A stretch of DNA of 33,832 bases. Origin: Oscillospiraceae bacterium. Lineage in GTDB: Bacteria > Bacillota > Clostridia > Oscillospirales > Oscillospiraceae. The stretch spans positions 1 through 33,832 of the forward strand of contig JAFSCK010000085.1 of the NCBI GenBank assembly GCA_017436785.1, in the 5' to 3' direction. A program made the translations under genes and the position numbers. This document shows, piece by piece, positions 2,953 through 31,577 of the stretch (position 1 is the stretch's first letter; every line of letters starts with the position of its first letter). The notes under the pieces were generated by a model. That model searched no databases. It was not told where the DNA came from and worked only from the letters and a program-made list of their open reading frames with translations.

Positions 2953-3066
2953 GTCATCCTGAGCGAGCAAAGCGAGTCGAAGGATCTTCGCATTAACGAG
3001 CCTGTACGCACGGTGATTGTGCGTAGATCCTTCGACTTCAGGCTAAGGCCCTTCGCTCAGGATGAC
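2953..3066. repeat. Inverted-repeat element, GTCATCCTGAGCGA family (copy 1)
   Basis: The element begins GTCATCCTGAGCGAGC and ends with the complementary GCTCAGGATGAC. A second nested inverted repeat (GAAGGATC and GATCCTTC) lies inside. It fills the spacer between gntR and the ABC ATPase gene. A diverged copy is at 9027-9135. It could fold into a long transcribed hairpin. It carries no coding sequence. Confidence 0.8.
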
Positions 3067-3131
3067 AGGCTGGCTGCAGGCTTTTGCTCTGCTGCACAAT
3101 TCATAGAAAAGTCTCAGAACAAAACACATTC

Positions 3132-3497
3132 TTATTTCTTCTTGCCATTTTTCTCCAACCGCTGCACCATCTGCTCCCGGGTGATGCCCAGTGAGAGCAG
3201 GGCGGCGGTGGCTTCGTCAAAGGCGGTGTACCAGCGCTCCACTTCCTGCTCCCGGCTCTTTTCGTTTTCGCAGACGAAGCAGCCCTTGCCGGGGATGGTG
3301 ACGATCCAGCCGTTGAATTCCAGCAGCCGGTAGGCCCGCTGGATGGTATTGGGATTGATGGCCAATGCCGAGGCCAGCTCCCGGACGCTGGGGAGCTTGT
3401 CTCCGGGCTTCAGGGCACCGCCGGTGATCTGCTCCTTCAGACCGTCGATGATCTGGGCATAAATGGGCCGGGAATCCCGATAATCCAAATGTACCAT
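3132..3497 (-). CDS. GntR-family regulator, YtrA subfamily
   Basis: A 121-residue transcription factor. Residues about 10-75 form the GntR winged helix-turn-helix, including the motifs LKPGDKLPSVRELA and NPNTIQRAYRLLE. The remaining tail is short, with no room for a FadR/HutC-type effector domain, which is the hallmark of the YtrA subfamily. YtrA-type repressors usually control an ABC transporter encoded in the same operon, and exactly that follows here. An AAAAAGGAGGGAGCC ribosome binding site precedes the ATG at 3497. A perfect palindromic operator overlaps its own promoter (3519-3574), so negative autoregulation of the whole unit is likely. The inducer is unknown. Confidence 0.9.
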   Translation of the reverse strand: MVHLDYRDSRPIYAQIIDGLKEQITGGALKPGDKLPSVRELASALAINPNTIQRAYRLLEFNGWIVTIPGKGCFVCENEKSREQEVERWYTAFDEATAALLSLGITREQMVQRLEKNGKKK

Positions 3498-3518
3498 AGG
3501 CTCCCTCCTTTTTGCATA

Positions 3519-3543
3519 ACTGTACTAGCTGTTCTAGTACAGT
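3519..3543. promoter_or_regulatory. Perfect inverted-repeat operator for the GntR/YtrA regulator
   Basis: The 10-bp arms ACTGTACTAG and CTAGTACAGT are perfectly complementary around a 5-bp spacer. The palindrome starts one base past the -10 hexamer of the gntR promoter, covering the expected transcription start. A bound GntR dimer would therefore block initiation. Confidence 0.8.
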
Positions 3544-3544
3544 T

Positions 3545-3574
3545 AGTATAACAGATGATACACCCATCCGTCAA
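3545..3574 (-). promoter_or_regulatory. Sigma-A promoter of the gntR-ABC operon
   Basis: On the minus strand, TTGACG (3569-3574) and TATACT (3545-3550) are separated by 18 bp. The dyad at 3519-3543 lies immediately downstream. Confidence 0.8.
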
Positions 3575-3645
3575 TGGCCCGAAGTTTAAGATTTCCTTAG
3601 GAAATGCTTAAGATGTCCGTTGAAGAAAAAAGCAGAAAAAGAAAT

Positions 3646-3770
3646 GTCATTGCGAGGAGCGACAGCGACGTGGCAATCTCCTCCAAGTTTCCGAAAGGCA
3701 ACGTTGTACGATTCTGTGCGGACCTTTGGAGGGGATTGCCACGCCAGTGTGCGCACTGGCTCGCAATGAC
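3646..3770 (-). repeat. GTCATTGCGA-family inverted repeat (copy A1)
   Basis: Ends are GTCATTGCGA and TCGCAATGAC, with an inner GTGGCAATC/GATTGCCAC pair. It begins 16 nt after the stop codon of the minus-strand gene ending at 3787 and lies in the same orientation relative to that gene as the other five copies. Confidence 0.85.
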
Positions 3771-3786
3771 ATGGTTTCATGATATG

Positions 3787-4170
3787 TTATTTCTTTCTTA
3801 AACTGGCCACCAGCAGACAGGCCCAGAGGAACAGGCTGAGGGCCCAGTTTCCGCTGCAGACCATGGGACTGGATACGATGACCAGCATAATATGCAGCAC
3901 CCTGCCCAGCAGCTGTGACTGCATGGCGCACAGGAAATTCAGCACCAGCAGCACAAGGGTCAGTCCCAGAGAGGCCGCGGATAAATTCCGCACCAGCACC
4001 CGGGTGTGTTCTTCCCGCTGATACAAAAGCAGTGCCGGCGGAACAAAGCACAGTACGGAAAGCACCGTCATGACCCCGGAAAGGGCACCGGAAGCCGCCG
4101 GGATAAATCCCAGCCCGGCGCACAAACTAAACAAACCGCCCCACAGGACGTAAAGAAGCTTTTTGCTCAT
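3787..4170 (-). CDS. Small four-helix membrane protein, unknown function
   Basis: A 127-residue, very hydrophobic protein with four apparent membrane segments (about residues 5-25, 30-50, 68-90 and 100-124) and a basic C-terminus ending RKK. AAAGGATTTCTT precedes the ATG at 4170. I recognise no family motif. It seems monocistronic: a GTCATTGCGA repeat follows the stop codon, and a GTAGGG-type repeat lies upstream of its start. The gntR operon downstream has its own promoter. Confidence 0.6.
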   Translation of the reverse strand: MSKKLLYVLWGGLFSLCAGLGFIPAASGALSGVMTVLSVLCFVPPALLLYQREEHTRVLVRNLSAASLGLTLVLLVLNFLCAMQSQLLGRVLHIMLVIVSSPMVCSGNWALSLFLWACLLVASLRKK

Positions 4171-4200
4171 AAGAAATCCTTTCCAAAAAGAAATGTAACA

Positions 4201-4334
4201 GTAGGGCGGGCTGCCCTCAGCCCGCCGTTAAATGCCTTCAGCCTGAGCAGCACAATCGACATATGAACAAATTGCTATGGAACTGACAACGCGGTTCCGG
4301 CAATCTGCGGCGGCTTGAGGGCAAGCCGCCCTAC
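4201..4334. repeat. GTAGGG...CCCTAC intergenic repeat (copy C2)
   Basis: Two end hairpins face each other. The left is GGGCGGGCTG paired with CAGCCCGCC; the right is GGCGGCTT paired with AAGCCGCC. GTAGGG and CCCTAC lie at the extremes. It occupies most of the divergent gap between the small membrane gene and nrdR (4171-4466). The remainder of that gap holds the nrdR promoter. Confidence 0.75.
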
Positions 4335-4402
4335 AAAAATGCCTTTCCTTATTTTACCCCAATCCATCACACTTGGCAACCCCTTCCAATCGCAAAAAAA
4401 GC

Positions 4403-4431
4403 TGGACAGTGGTGGAAACTTCTGGTATAAT
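4403..4431 (+). promoter_or_regulatory. Sigma-A promoter of nrdR
   Basis: TGGACA (4403-4408) and TATAAT (4426-4431) are 17 bp apart. They are followed by a GGGAGGGG ribosome binding site and the nrdR ATG at 4467. Confidence 0.85.
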
Positions 4432-4466
4432 ATCATATTATTATTGGAAAAGGGAGGGGAAATCCC

Positions 4467-4922
4467 ATGAAATGCCCTTATTGCGGAGATCAGGACAGCA
4501 AGGTCGTGGATTCCCGACATTCTGAGGACGGCCTCAGCATCCGCCGCCGCCGGGAGTGCATGAAGTGCCAGCGCCGGTTCACCACCTATGAGATCGTGGA
4601 GAGCCTGCCCATCATCGTGGTCAAGCGCAACGGCAGCCGTCAGGCCTTTGACCGCAACAAGATCCTCAATTCCATGATCCGCGCCTTTGACAAGCGGAAG
4701 GTGGACGTGGCTGATCTGGACCGGATCACCACGGAGATCGAACAGACCATCCAGAACACACTGGAGCGAGAGATCAGCACCGACAAGCTGGGCGAGATGG
4801 TCATGGAGCGCCTGAAGCCCATCGATGAAGTCGCTTACATCCGCTTTGCCTCCATCTACCACCGTTTTCAGGATGCAGGCAGCTTTATGCGGGAGATCAG
4901 CAAATTCCTGGAGGAAAAATAA
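4467..4922 (+). CDS. nrdR: Transcriptional repressor NrdR
   Basis: A 151-residue protein of the usual NrdR length. The N-terminal zinc ribbon has Cys3, Cys6, Cys31 and Cys34 and the motif CPYCG. It is followed by an ATP-cone domain (about residues 49-139) with VVKRNGSRQAFDRNKI. NrdR senses ATP/dATP and represses ribonucleotide reductase operons by binding paired NrdR boxes. No reductase gene lies in this window, so its targets are elsewhere. It has its own strong promoter. Its stop codon overlaps the next start codon by one base (TAATG), so the downstream membrane protein gene is co-translated. Confidence 0.96.
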   Translation: MKCPYCGDQDSKVVDSRHSEDGLSIRRRRECMKCQRRFTTYEIVESLPIIVVKRNGSRQAFDRNKILNSMIRAFDKRKVDVADLDRITTEIEQTIQNTLEREISTDKLGEMVMERLKPIDEVAYIRFASIYHRFQDAGSFMREISKFLEEK

Positions 4923-21199: not shown

Positions 21200-22402
21200 T
21201 TACTTCAGGTTGCCCAGCCACTCCACGTTGACAGCCTCGGTAGTGGGCTCAACGGAGATGTCGTTGGAAACCTTGATGGAGCCGTCGAACATGCCGGCGA
21301 CCAGAGCGGAGTAATCAGCGCTGGTGAACTTGCCATCCTCGAACAGGGTGGTGCCGGACAGCTGGACGTAGTTGGCGGTGGGCTCAGCGGAGACCAGACC
21401 CAGAGTCTGGATCTTGCCGGCGTAGTTAGCCCAGTTGCCGTTAATGACGATATCGGTCAGGGTGTCGATGGTGGTGGGAGCCAGACCCTTCATAGCGGAG
21501 GTGATGGTCATGCCCTCGCCGTAAGCAGCATCGATGATGGGAGCCTGATCGGTGTCAACACCGATGACCTTGCCGCCGACCTTCTTAGCAGCTTCAGCAG
21601 CGGAGGTGTAGATGCCGCCGCCGCAAGCGAAGACGACCTCAGTGCCTGCAGCATACCAAGTGTCCATAACAGCGGTGATGTCAGCATCGCCGAAGAACTG
21701 GTTGCCGTAAGCGTACTTCATATCGACAGTGATGCCCAGCTCCTTAGCAGCAGCGTCAACGCCCTGCACGTAGCCGTAGCCGAAACGCATAACAGCGGGA
21801 ACAGCCATGCCGCCCAGGAAGCCCAGCTTGGTGTAACCCAGCTTGACAGCAGCGTAGCCAGCCATGTAGCCGGACAGCTCTTCCTGATAGATAGCGCAGT
21901 AGACGTTGTCCATGTGGACGTAGTCGGTCAGGTTCCAGTTGTCGGGGTTGTAGTCATAGCTTTCGCCCTTCAGAGCGACAGCAGTCTCCAGCAGGTCGCC
22001 GGCAGCAACGTCCAGAGCGACGAACTTGATCTCGGGGTACTCGCCGGAAACTTCAGCGATGGTGCCGCCAAAAGCGTAGCCGGGCATAACGATGACGTTG
22101 TAGCCCTCAGCGATAGCCAGTTCCACGGATGCCACACGGCCAGCGGTGTCGTTGGAAGTGGGCTTGTAGTACTTGGTCTCAACGCCGTTGTCCTCACCGA
22201 ACTTCACGACAGCTTCCCAGGTGGTCTGGTTGAAGGACTGGTCGGTGATATCGCCGTAGTCAGTGACCATAGCGACCTTGTACTCGGTAGCGGTCTCGGC
22301 AGGAGCAGCAGCCTCAGGAGCCTTCTCCTCGGTCTTGCCGCCGCAGGCGACCAGAGACAGAGCCATTGCCAGAACCAGCAGCAGAGCCAGAATCTTCTTC
22401 AT
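21200..22402 (-). CDS. BMP-family nucleoside-type substrate-binding lipoprotein
   Basis: A 400-residue lipoprotein. The signal peptide ends with LSLVAC, giving lipid-modified Cys20. The mature protein matches the Bmp/Med/PnrA family: VTDYGDITDQSFNQTTWEA, GYAFGGTIAEV, KLGFLGGMAVPAV, and GVDTDQ. Members bind purine nucleosides or related ligands for an ABC importer. It ends a cluster of nucleoside catabolic genes, so nucleoside uptake is the likely role. No permease or ATPase partner lies in the window, so they must be encoded elsewhere or shared. GGAGGAATAAAC precedes the ATG. The spacer from cdd contains a stem-loop (22467-22511) and no repeat element, so it may have separate control. Confidence 0.9.
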   Translation of the reverse strand: MKKILALLLVLAMALSLVACGGKTEEKAPEAAAPAETATEYKVAMVTDYGDITDQSFNQTTWEAVVKFGEDNGVETKYYKPTSNDTAGRVASVELAIAEGYNVIVMPGYAFGGTIAEVSGEYPEIKFVALDVAAGDLLETAVALKGESYDYNPDNWNLTDYVHMDNVYCAIYQEELSGYMAGYAAVKLGYTKLGFLGGMAVPAVMRFGYGYVQGVDAAAKELGITVDMKYAYGNQFFGDADITAVMDTWYAAGTEVVFACGGGIYTSAAEAAKKVGGKVIGVDTDQAPIIDAAYGEGMTITSAMKGLAPTTIDTLTDIVINGNWANYAGKIQTLGLVSAEPTANYVQLSGTTLFEDGKFTSADYSALVAGMFDGSIKVSNDISVEPTTEAVNVEWLGNLK

Positions 22403-22466
22403 GTTTATTCCTCCATAAATTTCTGTATTGGTAAAAACATACCTTATCTATTGTCGCATATTCTGA

Positions 22467-22511
22467 CGGAAAAATCAACACCTTTTCCTGAGAAAACGCT
22501 GGATTTTTCCG
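22467..22511 (-). promoter_or_regulatory. Stem-loop between cdd and the BMP gene
   Basis: An outer 10-bp stem CGGAAAAATC/GATTTTTCCG encloses an inner TTTTC/GAAAA hairpin. It lies 25 nt after the cdd stop codon. It could be a partial terminator, an RNA processing site or an mRNA stabiliser that sets the BMP:cdd ratio. There is no U tract directly after it. Confidence 0.4.
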
Positions 22512-22536
22512 CATATCAGCAGGAATGTCCGTGCAG

Positions 22537-22944
22537 TCAGGCCATGTGTTTTTCAGAGGAAAAACTAAAGGGCAGGATTTCTGCCAAAGTCCGGGCCTCG
22601 TAGCCGGTTTCGTCCACCATGTAGATGAGGAAATCATCACCGCAAAATTCCCGCATCACCTGCCGGCATACGCCGCAGGGAGGAAAGGCGCCGGTGATGA
22701 TGCCGTCCTTGCCGCCGCAGACGGCGATGGAAACGAAATCCCGGTGCCCGTCATAAACTGCCTTGAAGAAGGCCGTCCGCTCGGCGCAGTTGGTGGGGCC
22801 GTAGGCGGCGTTTTCAATGTTGCAGCCCTGATACACCGTGCCGTCGGCACAGAGTAGGGCAGCGCCTACCTTGTAGCCGGAATAGGGCACATAAGCGTGT
22901 TGCATGGCCTCCTTGGCCAGTTCAACCAGTTTTTCAGGTGTCAT
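22537..22944 (-). CDS. cdd: Cytidine deaminase
   Basis: A 135-residue tetrameric-type cytidine deaminase, converting cytidine and deoxycytidine to uridine and deoxyuridine. Zinc ligands and catalytic Glu are visible as NCAERTA (Cys53, Glu55) and PPCGVC (Cys90, Cys93). The substrate-binding CNIENAAY block is present. The start at 22944 follows GGAGG; a longer frame exists but runs into the repeat at 22988. It lies between deoB and the BMP lipoprotein gene on the same strand and feeds pyrimidine nucleoside salvage. Confidence 0.95.
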   Translation of the reverse strand: MTPEKLVELAKEAMQHAYVPYSGYKVGAALLCADGTVYQGCNIENAAYGPTNCAERTAFFKAVYDGHRDFVSIAVCGGKDGIITGAFPPCGVCRQVMREFCGDDFLIYMVDETGYEARTLAEILPFSFSSEKHMA

Positions 22945-22987
22945 AAAGAACCTCCATTGTTCTTTGCAATGGCGCGGGAGCGCCCTT

Positions 22988-23157
22988 GGCTTCCCCCGGG
23001 GGGAAGCTGGCAAAAATCTTTGATTTTTGACTGATGAGGAATGCGGGCGATAAGGTTACGGTTAGTAAAGGGTTTCAGGCTTATTCCAGACTTGGAACTG
23101 CACGCCACCCCTCATCCGTCTCGCCTGCGGCGAGCCACCTTCCCCCCGGGGGAAGGC
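22988..23157. repeat. GGCTTCCCCC...GGGGGAAGGC repeat (copy D3)
   Basis: Its first 51 bases are identical by eye to copy D1. It then carries GAATGCGGGCGATAAGGTTAC, shared with D2, and ends CCTCATCCGTC...GGGGGAAGGC. A short GGGGGC/GCCCCC hairpin plus CCCTACAG (about 23159-23182) separates it from deoB and looks like the remnant of a GTAGGG-type repeat. Confidence 0.85.
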
Positions 23158-23190
23158 TTTGGGGGCAAGCCCCCGCCCTACAGTAGATTC

Positions 23191-24357
23191 TCAGATGATT
23201 TCGGATGCAAAGCTCTCGCCTGCAGTCTCATATTCCACTCCCAGCAGCTCGGTGACGGTGGCGGCGATGTCGGCGAAGGTTTTCCGGGTGCCGAGGTTCT
23301 TGGGGCGGACCTTCTTGCCCAGCACCAGCAGGGGCACGTATTCCCGGGTATGGTCGGTGGTGGCGGTGTAGGCAGGGTCGCAGCCGTGGTCGGCGGTGAT
23401 CATCACCAGATCGTCGTCACCTAGAGTCGGCAGGAAATCGCCCAGCCAGCGGTCAAATTCTGTCAGGGCATTGGCGTAGCCGTCAATATCCCGGCGGTGG
23501 CCGTAGAGCATGTCAAAGTCCACCAGATTCACAAAGCACAGGCCGGTAAAATCTTGCTTGGCATAGTTTGCCGCATGCTCCATGCCGTTGGTGTTGCTCT
23601 TATTGTAGACATATTCGGTATCACCGTAGCCGGCGAAGATATCGTGGATCTTGCCCACGGCGATGGAATCCAGTCCTGCCGCCTTGATGGCATCCAGCAT
23701 GGTCTTTGCGGGGGGCTCCAGAGAATAGTCGTGACGGTTGGCGGTGCGCTTGAAGCCGTTTACGCTGTCGCCTACAAAGGGACGGGCAATGACCCGGCCC
23801 ACGCCGTGCTTGCCTCTAAGGATATTTCTTGCCTTGTGGCAGGCCTCGTACAGCTCTTCCAGAGGAACTTTATTCTCGTGGGCAGCCACTTGGAAGACGG
23901 AGTCAGCAGAGGTGTAGATGATCCATTTTCCGGTATCCAGATGCTCCTGACCGTAGTCCCGGATCACATCGGTGCCGGAATAGGGCAGGTTGCACAGGCA
24001 GCCCCGGCCGGTTGCCGCTTCAAAGGCATCCAACACCTCCTGCGGGAAGCCATCGGGATAGGTGGGCAGAGGTTCAGGGGAGATCAGACCGGAAATTTCC
24101 CAGTGGCCGATGGTGGTGTCCTTGCCCATGGAAGCCTCTTGCATCCGTGCTACTGCACCGGTGGGGGCATCCGTCTTGGGCAGGTAGTCGATGCCGTCAA
24201 TGTTGCCGAGGCCTGCGGCGATCATGGTGGGGATGTGCAGCTTGTCGGAGGTGGTGCAGGATTTCAGCGTGTTGACGCCGATATCACCGAAGCTTTCCGC
24301 ATCCGGCATAGCCCCAATGCCGCAGGAATCCAATACAAATAAAAAGATACGTTTCAT
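23191..24357 (-). CDS. deoB: Phosphopentomutase
   Basis: A 388-residue alkaline-phosphatase-fold enzyme interconverting (deoxy)ribose 1-phosphate and 5-phosphate. Metal-binding motifs are LDSCGIGAMPDA at the N-terminus and ITADHGCDP...DHTREYVP near the C-terminus. The phosphorylated Thr region is KDTTIGHWEISG. The start at 24357 follows GAGGTG; the frame is open 7 codons further upstream. Length is normal for DeoB. It links purine nucleoside phosphorylase (deoD, upstream) to the aldolase (deoC). Confidence 0.96.
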   Translation of the reverse strand: MKRIFLFVLDSCGIGAMPDAESFGDIGVNTLKSCTTSDKLHIPTMIAAGLGNIDGIDYLPKTDAPTGAVARMQEASMGKDTTIGHWEISGLISPEPLPTYPDGFPQEVLDAFEAATGRGCLCNLPYSGTDVIRDYGQEHLDTGKWIIYTSADSVFQVAAHENKVPLEELYEACHKARNILRGKHGVGRVIARPFVGDSVNGFKRTANRHDYSLEPPAKTMLDAIKAAGLDSIAVGKIHDIFAGYGDTEYVYNKSNTNGMEHAANYAKQDFTGLCFVNLVDFDMLYGHRRDIDGYANALTEFDRWLGDFLPTLGDDDLVMITADHGCDPAYTATTDHTREYVPLLVLGKKVRPKNLGTRKTFADIAATVTELLGVEYETAGESFASEII

Positions 24358-24380
24358 AAATAACACCTCATAAAACAAGT

Positions 24381-24522
24381 GTCATTGCGAGGAGCGGAGC
24401 GACGTGGCAATCCCCTTCGGTCCGGGAGCTTGCCACGCCACTGCGCCCGCAGGCGCGTACAGAGCGCAACCGCCGAAGGCGGCCCTTAGCGCGGAGTAGT
24501 GTGCGCACTGGCTCGCAATGAC
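24381..24522 (-). repeat. GTCATTGCGA-family repeat (copy A4) carrying a nested 56-bp insert
   Basis: It lies 9 nt after the deoD stop codon and 23 nt before the deoB start codon. At 142 bp it is the longest copy because of an insertion at 24441-24496. That insert, read on the minus strand, is nearly identical to 27111-27169 inside repeat D4. Confidence 0.85.
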
Positions 24523-24531
24523 AGTAAAAGC

Positions 24532-25284
24532 TTACTTGTTCTCCATAGCCACGGCCACATCCAGTGCCACCTTCATCATCTGGGTGAAGGAGTTCTGGCG
24601 CTCCTCGGCGGAGGTTTCCACGCCGGTCAGCACATGGTCGGAGATGGTGCAGATGCACAGGCCCCGCTTGCCGTAGCGGGCGGCGTTCATATACAGAGCG
24701 GCGGCTTCCATTTCCAGCGCCATAACGCCCATCTTCTTCAGACCGTAGACGCTGTCCAGACCCTCGGGCACATCCACATGGTCGCCGTAGAACACATCGG
24801 AGGAGTTGACATTGCCCACATGGTAGGTTGCGCCGTGGGCCTCGGCAGCCTTGACAGCCTCGCTCAGCAGGGTGTAATCCGCAATAGGTGCGAACTGGCC
24901 GGGCAGATGGAACTGCTTATACCAGTTGGAATCGGTGCAGGCACCCTGAGCGATGACAAGATCGTACAGGTTGATATGGGGCTGGATGGAGCCTGCGGAG
25001 CCGACGCGGATGATGTTCTCCACGCCGAAGAAATTGAACAGCTCATGGGAATAGATGCCGATGGCGGGCATGCCCATACCGGAGGCCATGACGGAGACCT
25101 TGACACCCTTATAATAACCGGTGTGGCCCTGAACGCCCCGGACATTGTTTACCAGCACCGGGTTTTCCAGAAAGTTTTCCGCAATGAATTTCGCCCGCAG
25201 CGGATCACCGGGCATCAGAACGGTCTTGCCAAAGCCGATGGGATCAGAAACGTTGATATGAGGGGTAGTAGGGAAGTTGGACAT
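24532..25284 (-). CDS. deoD: Purine nucleoside phosphorylase, DeoD type
   Basis: A 250-residue hexameric-type phosphorylase that splits purine (deoxy)nucleosides with phosphate to base and (deoxy)ribose 1-phosphate. The phosphate-binding motif is MPGDPLRAK. The NP-I signature appears as GMGMPAIGIYSHELF, the ribose/base site as VMALEMEAAALY, and the catalytic aspartate as Asp216 in TISDHVLTG. AGAAGGAGTGTC precedes the ATG. It sits between deoC and deoB as expected for a deo operon. Confidence 0.95.
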   Translation of the reverse strand: MSNFPTTPHINVSDPIGFGKTVLMPGDPLRAKFIAENFLENPVLVNNVRGVQGHTGYYKGVKVSVMASGMGMPAIGIYSHELFNFFGVENIIRVGSAGSIQPHINLYDLVIAQGACTDSNWYKQFHLPGQFAPIADYTLLSEAVKAAEAHGATYHVGNVNSSDVFYGDHVDVPEGLDSVYGLKKMGVMALEMEAAALYMNAARYGKRGLCICTISDHVLTGVETSAEERQNSFTQMMKVALDVAVAMENK

Positions 25285-25311
25285 AATGACACTCCTTCTA
25301 AATTATTCCAT

Positions 25312-25395
25312 GTCATTGCGAGGAGCGAAGCGACGTGGCAATCCCCTGAATCGAAGGAGATTGCCACGCCAGTGTGCGCACTGGCTCGCAATGAC
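25312..25395 (-). repeat. GTCATTGCGA-family inverted repeat (copy A5), between deoC and deoD
   Basis: It lies 7 nt after the deoC stop codon and 27 nt before the deoD start codon, in the common orientation. Confidence 0.87.
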
Positions 25396-25402
25396 AGCGA
25401 TG

Positions 25403-26071
25403 TTAATAGGTTCCGTCGTCTTCCAGACCCTTGGCGATCTTGACGATGCGGGAGGTGCCCAGACGGTCAGCGCCCAGCGCGATGAACTTCTCTGCATCCT
25501 CCAAAGAGGAGATGCCGCCGGCGGCCTTGATCTTCACATGGGGGGCAACATGCTTGGCAAACAGCTCTACATCTGCGAAGGTGGCGCCGGCCTTGCTGAA
25601 GCCGGTGGAGGTCTTGATGTAATCCGCGCCGGAATCGGAAACGCACTTGCACAGGGCGATCTTTTCCTCGTCGGTAAGCAGGCAGGTCTCGATGATGACC
25701 TTCAGCAGCTTACCCTTGCAGGCGGTCTTAATGGCGGCGATCTCGGCAGTCAGGTCCTCCCACTTGCCCTCCTTGGCCCAGCCGATGTTGATGACCATAT
25801 CGATCTCGTCAGCACCATTGTCCACAGCATCGGAGGCCATGAAGCACTTGGCGGCGGTGGTGGCGTAGCCGTTGGGGAAGCCGATGACGGTGCAGATGGC
25901 CAGTTTGTCACCGACGTATTCCTTAGCCTGCTTCACAAAGGAAGCGGGGATGCAGACGGAGGCGGTCTGATACTTCATACCGTCATCGCAGATGGCTTTG
26001 ATGTCCGCCCAAGTAGCAGTCTGACCCAGCAGGGTGTGGTCGCACTTGGCGAGAATGTCTTTCAGTTCCAT
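25403..26071 (-). CDS. deoC: Deoxyribose-phosphate aldolase
   Basis: A 222-residue class I aldolase, cleaving deoxyribose 5-phosphate to glyceraldehyde 3-phosphate and acetaldehyde. The Schiff-base lysine is Lys153 in YIKTSTGF. The relay residues are Asp91 in ADEIDMVIN and Lys182 in [21 protein letters not shown] precedes the ATG. It provides the carbon outlet for deoxynucleosides handled by tdk-linked salvage, deoD and deoB in the same cluster. Confidence 0.96.
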
Positions 26072-26094
26072 AAATAAGTACTCCTTTTTTCACT

Positions 26095-26178
26095 GTCATT
26101 GCGAGGAGCGAAGCGACGTGGCAATCCTCTTCGATTCAGGAGTTTGCCACGCCAGTGTGCGCACTGGCTCGCAATGAC
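26095..26178 (-). repeat. GTCATTGCGA-family inverted repeat (copy A6), between tdk and deoC
   Basis: It lies 11 nt after the tdk stop codon and 23 nt before the deoC start codon, in the common orientation. It is nearly the same length as A3 and A5. Confidence 0.87.
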
Positions 26179-26189
26179 ATTAGTTGTTG

Positions 26190-26795
26190 TTAATTCTGTC
26201 CGTGCAGCTTAATGACCTTATGCTCCCGGATGCCTTTAATATAGCACTTGTGGCACATGGCGATGTAGCTGTCGTTGCCGCCCAGCACCACCTGTGCACC
26301 CTCGGTGACAATGTAGCCGTTGCCGTCGATTCTGGCGTTGACGGTAGCTTTGGCGCCGCAGTCGCAGATGGTCTTGATCTCCTGAATGGTGTCCGCCACC
26401 TCCATGAGCCGGCGGCTGCCGGGGAAGAGCCGGGTCTGGAAATCGGTCCGCAGGCCGAAGCACATGACAGGGATGCTGTGTTCATCCACGATGGCGCGGA
26501 GTTGGTCGATCTGCTTTTCCGTCAGGAACTGGCACTCGTCCACGATGATGACATCACTGCGGCGGGCCTTCCCACCTAAGAATCGGGCGTGGATGTCCAC
26601 CTCGGGGGCAATGACCTCCACCTGTGCTTCCAGCCCGATGCGGCTGCGCAAAGTGGCGGCGCCATCCCGGGTGTCGGCGCTGGGCTTGATGAGCCAGACC
26701 TTCAGATCGTTTTCCTCGTAATTGTATTTGGTGATCAGTGCCTGAGCTGTCTTGCTGGAGCCCATGGCACCGTATTTAAAATAGAGCTTTGCCAT
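26190..26795 (-). CDS. tdk: Thymidine kinase (type II)
   Basis: A 201-residue kinase that phosphorylates thymidine and deoxyuridine using ATP. The P-loop is GAMGSSKT (residues 9-16). The Walker B-like motif is VIIVDECQFL, and the C-terminal zinc site is formed by CDCGAKA and CHKCY. The start at 26795 follows GGAGGT and a promoter at 26825-26853. As first gene it heads the deo/cdd cluster. Confidence 0.95.
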   Translation of the reverse strand: MAKLYFKYGAMGSSKTAQALITKYNYEENDLKVWLIKPSADTRDGAATLRSRIGLEAQVEVIAPEVDIHARFLGGKARRSDVIIVDECQFLTEKQIDQLRAIVDEHSIPVMCFGLRTDFQTRLFPGSRRLMEVADTIQEIKTICDCGAKATVNARIDGNGYIVTEGAQVVLGGNDSYIAMCHKCYIKGIREHKVIKLHGQN

Positions 26796-26824
26796 ATCTC
26801 TTTCTACCTCCGTTCGCATCTTCC

Positions 26825-27249: not shown

Positions 27250-27283
27250 CAGGGGCTGTTGCAAAACAACGCAACAGCCCCTG
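27250..27283 (-). terminator. Hairpin, possible terminator of the PsiE-like gene
   Basis: A perfect 13-bp stem CAGGGGCTGTTGC/GCAACAGCCCCTG has an 8-nt loop. On the minus strand it is followed by TTATTGTTG, a weak U tract. It lies 42 bp after the stop codon. Confidence 0.6.
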
Positions 27284-27325: not shown

Positions 27326-27787
27326 TTATTCGATCTCCACCATTTCTTCCTTCAGCTCGCTGCGGCGGATCAGGAAGCGGCGGATGGCGAACAGGCCGGC
27401 AATACAGGCGATGCAGGCCAGATTGCTCCAAGGATCATCATGGCTCAGAACCACATGACGGGTGATAGCCACCGTCAGCACCTCCAGAATGTTGGCAGGG
27501 GTGGTGTCGATGAGCATGCGGACGAACTCCAAGCCCACCACGATGGTCAGCAGATTGTGGAGCATATGGTTTACATCAGAGAAGTACTCGCTGCCGGAGG
27601 AGAACATGTGGTAAATCTCAATTCCCAGCGCACCCAGCAGGGCGACGATGGTCAGGATGGCGATGAACCGCTCGATCAGATGCAGACACCGGCGGAACAG
27701 ACTGTCTACCCGGCGGTCCCGGCGGGCGATCTTGTCAATGTAGGCCTGAATTTTGGGGTCATCGGAATGGGCATGATGATGGCTCAC
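27326..27787 (-). CDS. PsiE-like small membrane protein
   Basis: A 153-residue protein with a His-rich N-terminus (SHHHAH) and three or four membrane segments (about 40-60, 75-95, 100-120 and 122-140). The central VVGLEFVRMLI ... ILEVLTVAITRHVVLSHDDP resembles the PsiE family (phosphate-starvation-inducible membrane proteins, PF06146). The assignment is moderate. The start codon is GTG at 27787 with TAGGAGGAATT upstream. A perfect hairpin lies downstream. No phosphate genes are nearby, so regulation by phosphate is not supported by context. Confidence 0.65.
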   Translation of the reverse strand: MSHHHAHSDDPKIQAYIDKIARRDRRVDSLFRRCLHLIERFIAILTIVALLGALGIEIYHMFSSGSEYFSDVNHMLHNLLTIVVGLEFVRMLIDTTPANILEVLTVAITRHVVLSHDDPWSNLACIACIAGLFAIRRFLIRRSELKEEMVEIE

Positions 27788-27888: not shown

Positions 27889-27916
27889 GTAGGGCGGGGA
27901 TATATCCCCGCCCTAC
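27889..27916. repeat. Minimal GTAGGG...CCCTAC palindrome (copy C10)
   Basis: A perfect 28-bp palindrome centred on ATATAT, 12 nt after the stop codon of the GTPase-NYN gene. It looks like the minimal unit of the GTAGGG family (one hairpin only) and could act as a 3'-end stem-loop. Confidence 0.8.
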
Positions 27917-27928
27917 AGTGGCTTTTCT

Positions 27929-30466
27929 TTACTTGTGAAAATGCTTTCCCATTTCCTTCCGGGCTTCCTCCACCTCCAGCTGCAATTCCCTTGCAGACAT
28001 CCGAAGCACGCCGCTGCGGATGGAACTGAGCTGCACAAGACCGTCGGAGGTGGCTACCCTTACAGCATAGTTGCTGCCGATCTCATGGACCAGCGCCTCG
28101 ATATAGGCATCCGCTGTTTCGCCCTCTTTGGTATAGACCACCTGAATGTTGTGAAACTGGCTTTTTTCGCCGGGATTTCCCTTCTGCTTGTAGCCATCGA
28201 AGACCACCACAAGGCGGCACTTGGTAAAGCCCGCATAGCTGCTTAAGGCATCGCACAGCTGCCGCCGGGCGGCATCCAAGTCAGACCGTGCCTGGGCCGC
28301 CAGATGTTCCCATGCAAAGATGATGTTGTAGCCGTCCACGATGATGTATTTCTGCTTCAGGGGACGGATGGTAATTTCTTCGGTGGCGGGCCGGTTGGCA
28401 GCCTTGGCGTTGTATAGCGGTGTCCGCAGGGGGCCAAATTCCCGCTCCATGATCTTTTCCAGCTCCTTGTCATCATAGCGGACGTTCCGGGTGATGATCT
28501 GGGGGGCTTTTTCTTCTTTCAGGCCGCTTTCCAAGTGCATGTGGTTTTTGACCTCGTTCCACTTGACGTTGAAGCCTGCCCCATGGGCGCAGAAGACGGA
28601 ATCCGGGGTGTTTTCCAAGTCTGCTTCCGGGTCATAACCCAATTCTTCGATGACCTCGGCGGCATTGTGGCAGGGAGCGTAGCCGTGGAGGGACAGCTGC
28701 AGCCGTCCCCGGCCTTGGGTATAGGCGGCAACGGTGTCGGCGTAGTCCTTCACCTCGGAGGCAGGCACCTGCCCCTTTAGCGTAGACAGGCCGCCGCTGG
28801 CCTCCGGGGCATCAAATTCGCCGCCCATGGCCCGAATATCCGTAATGGCCCGACCGATCTGTTCCGTGGGCATAGTCAGGGCAAAATCATACCAAGGCTC
28901 CAAAAGTACTGACTTGGCCTCCATGAGGCCCTGCCGGACTGCCCGGTAGGTGGCCTGCCGGAAGTCACCGCCCTCGGTGTGCTTTAGATGGGCCTTGCCT
29001 ACCAGCAGCGTGATCTTCATATCCGTAATGGGTGCCCCGGTGAGAACGCCCCGGTGGACCTTTTCTTCCAGATGGGTCAGGATCAGCCGCTGGTAATTCA
29101 CTTCCAGCACATCCAGCGGACAAACCGTGTCAAAGACCAGACCGCTGCCCCGGGGCAGGGGCTCCAACAGCAGGTGGCACTCGGCATAATGCCGCAGAGG
29201 CTCGAAATGACCCACGCCCTCCACGGTATTTTCGATGGTCTCCTTATAGAAGATACGGCGGTCATCCAGCGTTACATCCAGCGAGAAGCGCTGCTGTACA
29301 AGACTGCGGAAAATTTCCAGCTGGACCCGGCCCATGATCTGCACATGGATCTGTCCATTTTCCCAGACCAGATGAAGCTGGGGGTCTTCCTCCTCCAGCT
29401 GCCGCAACTTCGGCATCACCACCGCCGGGTCGCTGCCCTTGGGCAGATTTACCCGGTAGGTCATGACAGGCTCCAGCGCCGGGGGCAGGGAGAAGGTCTC
29501 GGAGCCCAGTGCCTGTCCGGCGTAGGTCTCTGTCAGGCCCGTCACGGCTGCGATCTGGCCTGCGGTGACGATTTCCGGGGCGGTGAATTTGTCGGCGGAA
29601 TAGCAGCGCAGCTGCACTGCCTTTTCCTCCCGTTTTTCACCCTTCTGGTTGACATAATCTAAGACGCTGCGGACCTTGAGTGCTCCGCCGGTGACCTTCA
29701 GCCAAGTCAGCCGGTTGCCCTGGGGGTCCCGGGAAATTTTATATACCCGGGCTGCAAAGTCTCCGGGATAGTCCGGCGTGGGCGCGTAGGCGTCCAGCAC
29801 CTCCAGCAATTCCTCCACGCCCGTGAGCTTCAGCGCGGAACCGAAGCAGCAGGGGAAGAGCTTGCGCTGGGCGATGAGCCCACGAAGATTACCTATGGTG
29901 ACCGTGCCGGTTTCCAGATAGTTTTCCAGCAGCGCCTCGTCGCACATGGCGGCGCTTTCCGCGATGGTGTCAAAATCTGCCCCAAAATCCACACAGCCGG
30001 GGGACAGCTGCGCCTGTAAGGCTTCCAGCAGCTTTCCCCGTTCCGGCACGGTCAGGTCCATTTTGTTAATAAACAGGAAGGTGGGCACATGGTACCGTTC
30101 CAGCAGCCGCCAAAGGGTCAGGGTATGGGCCTGCACCCCGTCGATGCCGCTGATCACCAGCACGGCGCAGTCCAGAATGGGCATAGTCCGTTCCGCCTCT
30201 GCGGAAAAGTCCACATGTCCCGGGGTGTCCACCAGTGTCACAGCCCGGGTTTCCGTTTCCAATCGTGCCTGCTTGGAGAAAATGGTAATGCCTCTTGCCC
30301 GCTCCAGCGCGTGGGTATCCAAAAAAGCGTCCTTATGATCCACTCGCCCCAAGGTCCGGCGGGCACCGCTGACATACAGCAGCGCCTCCGAAAGGGTCGT
30401 CTTGCCCGCATCCACATGGGCTAGCAGAGCCGTACAACATGGGGTCTTTTTCGGCTTATTCTCCAT
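27929..30466 (-). CDS. EF-G/TetM-like translation GTPase fused to a C-terminal NYN (Rae1/YacP-like) RNase domain
   Basis: An 845-residue protein. The G domain has G1 AHVDAGKTT (16-24), G2 in ARGITI, G3 DTPGHVDF (Asp80, His84), G4 NKMD (134-137) and G5 SAL. Domains II-V follow to about residue 600 with TetM-type blocks, such as MGRVQLEIF (378-386), LLEPWYDFALTMP (521-533) and VPASEVKDYADTVAAYTQGRG. The tip that in Tet(M) is YSPVSTPADF reads KHTEGGDF here (495-502), so the tetracycline-displacing loop is absent. After a linker (about 600-705), residues 706-845 form a NYN nuclease domain: VDGYNIIFAWE (Asp711), VVFDGYKQKG (Asp757), GETADAYIE (Glu783, Asp786), TSDG (Asp808). B. subtilis Rae1/YacP, of this domain type, cuts mRNA in the ribosomal A site. 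Start at 30466 follows AAGGAGG. Confidence 0.9.
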   Translation of the reverse strand: MENKPKKTPCCTALLAHVDAGKTTLSEALLYVSGARRTLGRVDHKDAFLDTHALERARGITIFSKQARLETETRAVTLVDTPGHVDFSAEAERTMPILDCAVLVISGIDGVQAHTLTLWRLLERYHVPTFLFINKMDLTVPERGKLLEALQAQLSPGCVDFGADFDTIAESAAMCDEALLENYLETGTVTIGNLRGLIAQRKLFPCCFGSALKLTGVEELLEVLDAYAPTPDYPGDFAARVYKISRDPQGNRLTWLKVTGGALKVRSVLDYVNQKGEKREEKAVQLRCYSADKFTAPEIVTAGQIAAVTGLTETYAGQALGSETFSLPPALEPVMTYRVNLPKGSDPAVVMPKLRQLEEEDPQLHLVWENGQIHVQIMGRVQLEIFRSLVQQRFSLDVTLDDRRIFYKETIENTVEGVGHFEPLRHYAECHLLLEPLPRGSGLVFDTVCPLDVLEVNYQRLILTHLEEKVHRGVLTGAPITDMKITLLVGKAHLKHTEGGDFRQATYRAVRQGLMEAKSVLLEPWYDFALTMPTEQIGRAITDIRAMGGEFDAPEASGGLSTLKGQVPASEVKDYADTVAAYTQGRGRLQLSLHGYAPCHNAAEVIEELGYDPEADLENTPDSVFCAHGAGFNVKWNEVKNHMHLESGLKEEKAPQIITRNVRYDDKELEKIMEREFGPLRTPLYNAKAANRPATEEITIRPLKQKYIIVDGYNIIFAWEHLAAQARSDLDAARRQLCDALSSYAGFTKCRLVVVFDGYKQKGNPGEKSQFHNIQVVYTKEGETADAYIEALVHEIGSNYAVRVATSDGLVQLSSIRSGVLRMSARELQLEVEEARKEMGKHFHK

Positions 30467-30499
30467 TGGAAAAGCCTCCTTCTTTGCAATCGTACTGAG

Positions 30500-30528
30500 A
30501 TTATAGCATAGAAAAACGCTTGCGTCGA
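30500..30528 (-). promoter_or_regulatory. Promoter of the GTPase-NYN gene
   Basis: On the minus strand TCGACG (30523-30528) and a perfect TATAAT (30500-30505) are 17 bp apart. The predicted leader is under 40 nt, too short for the tetracycline-type attenuator found upstream of tet(M). Confidence 0.7.
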
Positions 30529-30605: not shown

Positions 30606-31577
30606 TTGAGCCGTCCACAGATGATGGACGGCTCCCACTATATATGGCATTTATTTCGGCAGATTAAGGAAAAACAAAAGGAAATCCAGAAGCAGAACGA
30701 AGCCGTTGCAGATGACTATATTATCCGGGCGGTACAGGAAAAGAATCTTCTGTATCTCAGCTTTTTCCTCCATGGTTATGAACATAAGCTCAATGGGAAG
30801 GTGTACTCTTTCCTGAAAAGAAACGGTATGGACACTTACGATCCCGCTCTATTTCTGGACATGAAACTTGCTCTTCAGGAGCTAATCCTGAAGAAGCTGC
30901 CTATCTTTGATCCGTCCAGGGATGCAAAGTTTCTAACCTATCTGCATCATTTCATCTATGATACATTCAAGCTATTCCGGATGCGGCAGGAGTGCTGGAC
31001 GATCAATTCTCTGGATATGTACAAAACAACCCGGCGGATGGCAGCCATCTACAATGCCAACTGTCAGGATAAAAAGAAAGCTATTGAGATATTTTGTAGT
31101 GAAACTGGTTACACACCGAAAAAAGCAGAAGAATACCTGGCAGAGGCCATCGGCCTCCGGGCTCGGCAGACGGAGGTCATCATTGACCGGGATGAGGATG
31201 ATACCGCAGTTATAGAAGAGATTGTCCCGGACGGTGTCGGAAATCTATGCCGTGTTATCTCCAATGACCGTCTGATTAAGGCGGTACGGGCATCCTTTAA
31301 TAAACTCCCCTGGCAGGAACGGCGGGTATTGCAGGCAAGAAATGCTATCTGCGATAACTGCGGCGGTATGCAGCCCATGAAGGAACAATTCTCCTTCCGG
31401 GAGATTGCGGTTCTTACCGGCTGCGGCACAGAAAAAGGTGGGCAGCTTGCCTACCAGGCCGCCCTGGACTTCCTGATCCGTCAGCTGACAGAGGATGAAG
31501 TCTTCCGGATCATAAATCTGAAACAAAAAGCAGTGACACGCCGGAAAAAGAAAATCGCCGCCGCAACCTACCTGTAA
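30606..31577 (+). CDS. Sigma-70-like factor or mobile-element regulator, lower-GC accessory gene
   Basis: A 323-residue protein with two sigma-like parts. Region about 50-130 (LYLSFFLHGYEHKLNGKVYSF ... AKFLTYLHHFIYDTFKLF) resembles sigma region 2. Region about 230-300 (FNKLPWQERRVL ... FSFREIAVLTGCG) resembles a region 4 helix-turn-helix. The C-terminus is basic (TRRKKK). Such proteins occur as regulators on conjugative elements; I cannot name the family. The TTG at 30606 or ATG at 30621/30624 could be the start; none has a Shine-Dalgarno sequence and the frame is open back to 30537, so the 5' end may be truncated. Base composition is visibly lower in GC than the neighbours. It is divergent from the GTPase-NYN gene. 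Confidence 0.65.
   Translation: MSRPQMMDGSHYIWHLFRQIKEKQKEIQKQNEAVADDYIIRAVQEKNLLYLSFFLHGYEHKLNGKVYSFLKRNGMDTYDPALFLDMKLALQELILKKLPIFDPSRDAKFLTYLHHFIYDTFKLFRMRQECWTINSLDMYKTTRRMAAIYNANCQDKKKAIEIFCSETGYTPKKAEEYLAEAIGLRARQTEVIIDRDEDDTAVIEEIVPDGVGNLCRVISNDRLIKAVRASFNKLPWQERRVLQARNAICDNCGGMQPMKEQFSFREIAVLTGCGTEKGGQLAYQAALDFLIRQLTEDEVFRIINLKQKAVTRRKKKIAAATYL
30608..30634 (+). promoter_or_regulatory. Hairpin over the start region of the sigma-like gene
   Basis: Perfect 9-bp arms GAGCCGTCC and GGACGGCTC with a 9-nt loop that exposes ATGAT. Both possible ATG starts lie in or next to the loop, so the structure could gate initiation or be a recombination footprint. Confidence 0.45.

Follow-up and report, generated by a model that had tools for sequence, protein, structure and literature searches.

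A 33,832-nucleotide contig of an Oscillospiraceae bacterium (GenBank assembly GCA_017436785.1, contig JAFSCK010000085.1; the whole stretch is called the window below) carries a gene in which a translational GTPase is fused to a nuclease domain of the YacP/Rae1-type NYN family. Our analysis suggests, with a probability of roughly 0.55 and by analogy with the two parent families, that its product is a Rae1/YacP-type ribosome-dependent mRNA endonuclease carried on its own EF-G/Tet-like delivery GTPase, and the best reading of its task is surveillance rather than tetracycline resistance. The best-supported step in this argument is that the fusion, judging by its distribution among genomes, appears to stand in for YacP. 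The architecture itself was already published in 2015, when, according to the part of that paper available to us, Tet proteins carrying a YacP-like NYN domain were described from ten Clostridiales species (Atkinson 2015; PMC4342817); relative to that part, the new elements here are the distribution of the fusion, its exclusion of YacP and its separation from Tet. The gene, its putative signals and its domains are as follows.

27929..30466, minus strand: fused gene, translational GTPase plus YacP/Rae1-type NYN nuclease, 845 residues and a stop codon, ATG start at 30466
30475..30480, minus strand: AGGAGG ribosome-binding site, read from the sequence, 8 bases 5' of the ATG
30500..30528, minus strand: promoter-like TCGACG-17-TATAAT with TG before the second hexamer, which would imply a short leader
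29780..30430, minus strand: G domain, GTP_EFTU, residues 13-229, all GTPase motifs (Pfam E 9.8e-49, above the curated cut-off)
29507..29758, minus strand: EF-G-type domain II, residues 237-320 (weak Pfam EF-G_D2 match, below cut-off)
29267..29473, minus strand: EF-G-type domain III, residues 332-400 (weak Pfam EFG_III match, below cut-off)
28913..29254, minus strand: domain IV, EFG_IV, residues 405-518 (Pfam E 3.5e-18, above the curated cut-off)
29174..29224, minus strand: domain IV tip stretch, residues 415-431, containing GHFEPLRHYAE, nearly invariant among fused proteins and, for the most part, among unfused ones
28949..29005, minus strand: domain IV tip stretch, residues 488-506, containing AHLKHTEGGDFRQA, which aligns with Tet Y-S-P-V
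28661..28909, minus strand: domain V, EFG_C, residues 520-602 (Pfam E 1.2e-17, above the curated cut-off)
28529..28660, minus strand: C-terminal extension of the GTPase, residues 603-646, seen in the alignment (S623-V-F-C626, G629, W636, H644)
28352..28528, minus strand: variable linker, residues 647-705, median identity 22%, with a short conserved stretch at 668-678
27932..28351, minus strand: NYN_YacP nuclease domain, residues 706-845 (Pfam match 708-843, E 2e-44)

An initial annotation of the window had described this fusion as one 845-residue chain at the coordinates found here, without giving its strand. Promoter-like matches occur in the region at chance level (2 found against 2.2 expected). 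The GTPase half retains all five GTPase motifs (G1-G5: AHVDAGKT, RGITI, DTPGH, NKMD and GSA) in its GTP_EFTU domain, followed by EFG_IV and EFG_C, the combination that marks a translational GTPase of the EF2 family, and the solved chains scoring highest against the first 600 residues were EF-G, then TetO and TetM. The nuclease half scored 151.9 bits against a curated Pfam cut-off of 24.6 for NYN_YacP, and the last 140 residues matched the solved Bacillus subtilis YacP chains 5mq8/5mq9 (E about 1e-21). By this sequence match the nuclease half is assigned a YacP/Rae1-type NYN fold, in agreement with the identity first given to residues 706-845.

Relatives of the fusion were collected by a contig scan of one genome per species across 84,980 species, from which the best 80 were taken. 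In 79 of these 80 the fused frame spans 835 residues or more, which rules out an assembly chimera; one relative (L073) had a broken frame of 504 residues and was left out. The alignment comprised 114 fused sequences from 117 candidates, as three that were cut or broken (L073, L091 and L105) were dropped. Asp711, Asn714, Asp757, Asp786 and Asp808 were invariant in all 114 sequences, and the four aspartates align with aspartates of YacP, at the acidic active-site positions of the fold. Among 1500 randomly drawn pairs, median identity was highest in domain IV (75%), followed by the G domain (60%), the NYN domain (58%) and the linker (22%), values indicating that both halves are constrained while the linker is free to vary; the spacing from H644 to D711 ranged from 63 to 111 residues over the 114 relatives. 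The fusion gene is thus real and both its halves are intact. The retained GTPase motifs and aspartates had led the initial annotation to consider both halves active. The gene is widespread in its own family and single-copy in 91 of the 92 family genomes that carry it; two fused copies were found in one genome (G133), and one copy of the gene lies on a record labelled as a plasmid. As a separate observation, the fusion was also present on two faecal records that bear the unverified label 'phage', and two IMG/VR contigs (L202 and L203) hold a GTPase of the same family from their first bases, with no NYN match on either; L202 starts exactly at the GTPase start codon (726-residue frame), as if the virus call had cut there.

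The occurrence of the fusion in comparison to stand-alone YacP was surveyed in a class sample of 391 genomes, of which 249 had NYN_YacP. Five ambiguous genomes were left out of the two-by-two table, and a frame truncated at a contig end was scored as fused if it exceeded 290 residues. Among the 386 genomes counted, 138 had the fused gene and 107 a stand-alone YacP, a single genome (G330) being counted in both groups, and 142 had neither; the one genome with both compares with 38.3 expected to hold both forms if the two were independent (Fisher p 6e-24, a value that ignores shared ancestry). All 138 fused genomes had a GTPase match (130 among the matches listed and eight as weaker matches only), and second NYN_YacP matches in three genomes (G136, G201 and G242) fell below the cut-off. 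The genome from which the window derives (91% complete, 7% contamination) has the fusion as its only NYN_YacP, and this together with the figure of one in 138 bears out the expectation that fusion-carrying genomes would lack a separate rae1/yacP gene. Within the family of the host, NYN_YacP was found in 92 of 150 genomes, 89 of them with a frame of at least 600 residues (judged by frame length), and no clear stand-alone YacP gene was seen among the 92; the three short frames included two at the first bases of a contig.

Three genera contained fused as well as YacP-alone genomes and no genome with both, although in one of them (g101) contig ends truncate the fused gene. Nine stand-alone-YacP genomes from families that also bear the fusion, three of them 77-88% complete, were searched for the GTPase of the fusion's family, and gave either no match or matches of about 30% identity that sit in EF-G-length frames. 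The simplest reading of this near-complete exclusion is that the fusion and free YacP perform the same task and replace each other.

The GTPase half shows some 28% identity with Tet(M), Tet(O) and Tet(W), and 26-27% with an EF-G of Clostridioides difficile and with an EF-G-like protein of its own genome. Its best NCBIfam match was tet_protect, at 383.9 bits, which is below the cut-off of 775 and compares with 877.4 bits for Tet(M) and 973.9 bits for Tet(Q), and the NCBIfam EF-G model gave 271.2 bits, again below its cut-off (659.4). A quick maximum-likelihood tree was built from 66 rows (41 fused, 17 unfused, four Tet and three EF-G-type sequences, with RF3 as a long outgroup; Otr(A) and TetB(P) were left out). 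In this tree the fused and unfused proteins formed one branch with a Shimodaira-Hasegawa-like approximate likelihood ratio test (SH-aLRT) value of 99, the four Tet rows formed a separate branch outside it (100), and both groups together stood apart from EF-G (SH-aLRT 93). The GTPase is therefore placed by sequence as a sister family of the tetracycline-protection proteins and not as a member. A GTPase of this family that lacks NYN is found at 2986-4920 of a Ligilactobacillus salivarius plasmid record, where it is named a TetM/TetW/TetO/TetS family resistance protein; despite this name it scores half of the tet_protect cut-off.

Unfused members of the family show where the two halves meet. Among the matches listed from the class sample, 16 genomes encode an unfused GTPase in a frame of 645-671 residues, with 42-47% identity, and all 16 proteins stop 2-13 residues past the position of H644. 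C599, S623, F625, C626, G629 and H644 are present in 16 of 16 unfused rows and W636 in 15, the tips of domain IV are likewise common to both forms, and residues 603-646 align with nothing in Tet(M), Tet(O) or two EF-G rows. Because this conserved extension forms the C-terminus of all 16 unfused relatives, the end of the GTPase part lies near residue 646 and not at 600 as first annotated; the NYN limits of 706-845 stand. The unfused proteins end at the fusion point with the shared extension, and the nuclease was therefore added behind a complete protein. Nine of the 16 genomes also have a stand-alone YacP and seven have no NYN_YacP. Five further genomes had weaker GTPase matches with unlisted frames and are counted as unfused only because their sole NYN is stand-alone; with them the totals become 21 'unfused' genomes and 14 with YacP.

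A nuclease-domain tree of 39 fused and 45 stand-alone rows (the latter a part of the 107 stand-alone genomes) placed all 39 fused rows in one branch (100/98), which also takes in the stand-alone rows of G160 and G243, and left the other 43 stand-alone rows outside. Every one of these 39 fused rows carries Tyr at position 759, where His is present in 51% of the 45 stand-alone rows. A single joining event is the simplest reading of these sequence data. In GTPase trees the fused rows and the Lactobacillus copies lacking NYN formed one branch (99; second tree 92/99), and an alternative topology with the fused rows as one clade without Lactobacillus gave p 0.164 in the approximately unbiased test; a firm claim that Lactobacillus lost the NYN domain was dropped, as nesting in the fused branch is not decisive. 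Two genomes may be noted for themselves: G243 encodes an unfused GTPase as well as a stand-alone fused-type nuclease, the two lying on different contigs, and G160 holds a fused-type nuclease alone, no GTPase of the fusion's family having been found there.

Within the fused family, conservation peaks in domain IV. Comparisons of Tet(M) with Tet(Q) or Tet(W) show the same, in contrast to one EF-G pair (an Escherichia coli record and C. difficile) in which this domain is the least conserved, and the pattern points to action in the A site. The window protein is only 27% identical to Tet(M) in this domain, and its two conserved tip motifs, G417-x-G-H-[FY]-E-P-L-R-H-Y-A-E and G490-x-A-H-x-K-H-T-x-G-G-D-F-R, are unlike those of Tet. 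They form a basic, His-rich tip made up of H420, R425, H426, H431, H493, K495 and H496, none of which is missing from more than one of the 114 fused rows. Every fused and unfused row has H496; K495 is kept in all 16 unfused rows and in 113 of the 114 fused ones, and H493 is nearly invariant. H493 aligns with a His of EF-G that sits at the tip of EF-G domain IV. By analogy with these relatives, the tips of domain IV would reach the decoding centre. The position of the Tet-type loop III (Y-S-P-V) is occupied by H-x-K-H, with S-P-V of Tet(M) aligned to x-Lys-His and the Lys of the fused family aligned to Pro509 of Tet(M), a residue that in the accessible part of a review sits in the tetracycline site at C1054 (PMC8161019). 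A Tet(M) in which S508, P509 and V510 are all changed to Ala can nevertheless be active, according to the available text of PMC4750697, so that drug displacement is still compatible with the tip residues of the fusion and the loop evidence is indecisive.

The proposed course of events combines what is described for the parent families. The GTP form would bind the factor site of a paused ribosome and place domain IV in its empty A site, as expected from the GTPase family, after which GTP hydrolysis would pull domain IV back out; the NYN domain, on its long flexible spacer, would then move into the A site and cut the mRNA there, as expected from Rae1. The truncated complex would pass to transfer-messenger RNA (tmRNA) and SmpB and the mRNA would be degraded; tmRNA and SmpB are present in the host genome, near each other on one contig. 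Rae1 is an A-site mRNA endonuclease according to the portions seen of PMC6613710 and PMC12320835, and in the latter it is listed among the enzymes that cut A-site mRNA ahead of tmRNA.

Several points weigh against the reading of the fusion as a Rae1-type endonuclease that brings its own GTPase for delivery. Binding to the ribosome, cleavage in the A site and coupling to GTP are all borrowed by analogy from the two parent families, and the weakest step is the sequence in which these events would follow each other: an ordered hand-over has to be assumed because domain IV and the NYN domain probably cannot share the A site, even if the spacing of 63-111 residues would permit it. The GTPase need not deliver the nuclease, since stand-alone Rae1 works without a fused GTPase. 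Each half also occurs alone (the GTPase lacks NYN in L. salivarius and in seven of the 16 listed unfused-frame genomes, and the fused-type nuclease lacks the GTPase in G160), which suggests that the halves can act apart, and only nine of the 16 unfused-GTPase genomes also have a stand-alone YacP, a weak link between the two. One genome, G330, holds both forms, the exclusion statistics treat related genomes as independent, and the function would seem dispensable, given that 142 of the 386 counted genomes have neither form.

The separate occurrences of the halves, the long and poorly conserved linker and the nine stand-alone-YacP genomes without any such GTPase could instead be interpreted as two independent jobs in one chain, with an ordinary Rae1 NYN domain and a GTPase of other ribosomal role, for example clearing or translocating stalled complexes, fused for co-expression only. 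We consider this unlikely, although it is the strongest competitor: the 39 fused nuclease domains all fall in one branch, with two stand-alone rows inside, and an architecture kept in 138 of 391 genomes is hard to square with chance co-expression. Clearly less probable is a tetracycline-type ribosomal protection protein in which the RNase adds a further resistance mechanism, as proposed for Tet-NYN proteins in the accessible part of Atkinson 2015 (PMC4342817) and as implied when the initial annotation invoked a drug-bound ribosome and an antibiotic response. The grouping with Tet(M), Tet(O), Tet(W) and Tet(Q) apart from EF-G in the quick tree, the best NCBIfam match and a conservation weighted to domain IV are in its favour, but the score of 384 bits is far from the cut-off of 775 and from the Tet(M) and Tet(Q) scores (877 and 974), the Tet loop residues are replaced by an almost invariant x-K-H beside the GHFEPLRHYAE tip (indecisive, as discussed above), and the gene is a widespread, single-copy component of its family. 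The least probable alternative, which we regard as very unlikely, is a factor whose target on the ribosome would be rRNA or tRNA and not mRNA, with processing or inactivation as its role; participation of YacP-like NYN domains in the maturation of rRNA and tRNA has been proposed (cited in the part seen of PMC4342817), but the solved relative Rae1 is described as an A-site mRNA endonuclease in the two sources given above and the conservation of domain IV points to the A site.

The neighbourhood of the gene contains the following features.

27326-27787, minus strand: PsiE-family protein (Pfam), directly downstream of the fusion gene
27889-27916 and 27250-27283: GC-rich, terminator-like inverted repeats, 3' of the fusion gene and 3' of the PsiE-like gene, respectively
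30606-31577, plus strand: divergent 323-residue sigma-factor-like protein (phrog_351, E 2e-8; weak FliA/WhiG match)
21200-26819, minus strand: nucleoside-salvage-looking cluster of thymidine kinase, DeoC aldolase, nucleoside phosphorylase, a metalloenzyme-superfamily protein and a PnrA-like binding protein

No general operon partner was found, as neighbour clusters recur in at most 10 of 81 loci (an antisense frame was taken for the downstream gene at six loci). A direct search found the PsiE-like gene downstream on the same strand at 16 of 80 loci, each belonging to one of the 21 nearest relatives, and no homologue of the sigma-factor-like protein was found among fusion-gene neighbours in the 80 relatives compared. 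Anti-phage defence was considered and set aside, there being no PADLOC match at E 0.01, and no Rfam match above gathering scores, as for an RNA leader, was obtained in the window.

Compared with known systems, the fusion shares with Rae1/YacP of B. subtilis (PF05991) an NYN domain that is homologous over most of its length and keeps the acidic residues, and sampled genomes nearly always have one form or the other; it differs in that Rae1 stands alone, here the domain follows a five-domain GTPase, and Tyr759 takes a place often held by His. With Tet(M), Tet(O) and Tet(Q) it shares the domain order, a sister position in the tree and domain IV as the most conserved domain, and differs in its domain IV tips, its C-terminal extension, the added nuclease, an identity of 28% and a score about half the tet_protect cut-off. 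EF-G has the same domain order and the His aligned with H493; the differences are an identity of 25-27%, a score of 271 bits where the cut-off of the EF-G model is 659 and, in the one EF-G pair compared, domain IV as the least conserved domain. The Tet-NYN proteins of Atkinson 2015 have the same architecture of a Tet-like GTPase followed by NYN, their ten sequences being compared here by description; YacP exclusion, distribution, unfused relatives and tip conservation come only from the present analysis, as far as the part seen of that paper goes (PMC4342817). In RefSeq a Monoglobus copy of this architecture is named 'translation factor GTPase family protein'. Among the papers listed by searches of openly licensed literature, no other paper or experimental work on the fusion was found.

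Database proteins of the fusion's GTPase family that are named tetracycline-resistance determinants, such as the L. salivarius copy, may not be such. We know of no clear account of how free Rae1 selects paused ribosomes, and a natural fusion that replaces Rae1 and carries a GTPase of an A-site-entering type makes this recruitment testable. A more tentative proposal, which we consider possible but doubtful, is that the protein is a GTP-gated cutter in which the His-rich tip of domain IV probes for a vacant A site and hydrolysis licenses the cut by the tethered NYN domain. If true, this would amount to a kinetic timer for stalls, a nuclease analogue of EF-Tu proofreading, that replaces free Rae1 in about a third of the sampled class.

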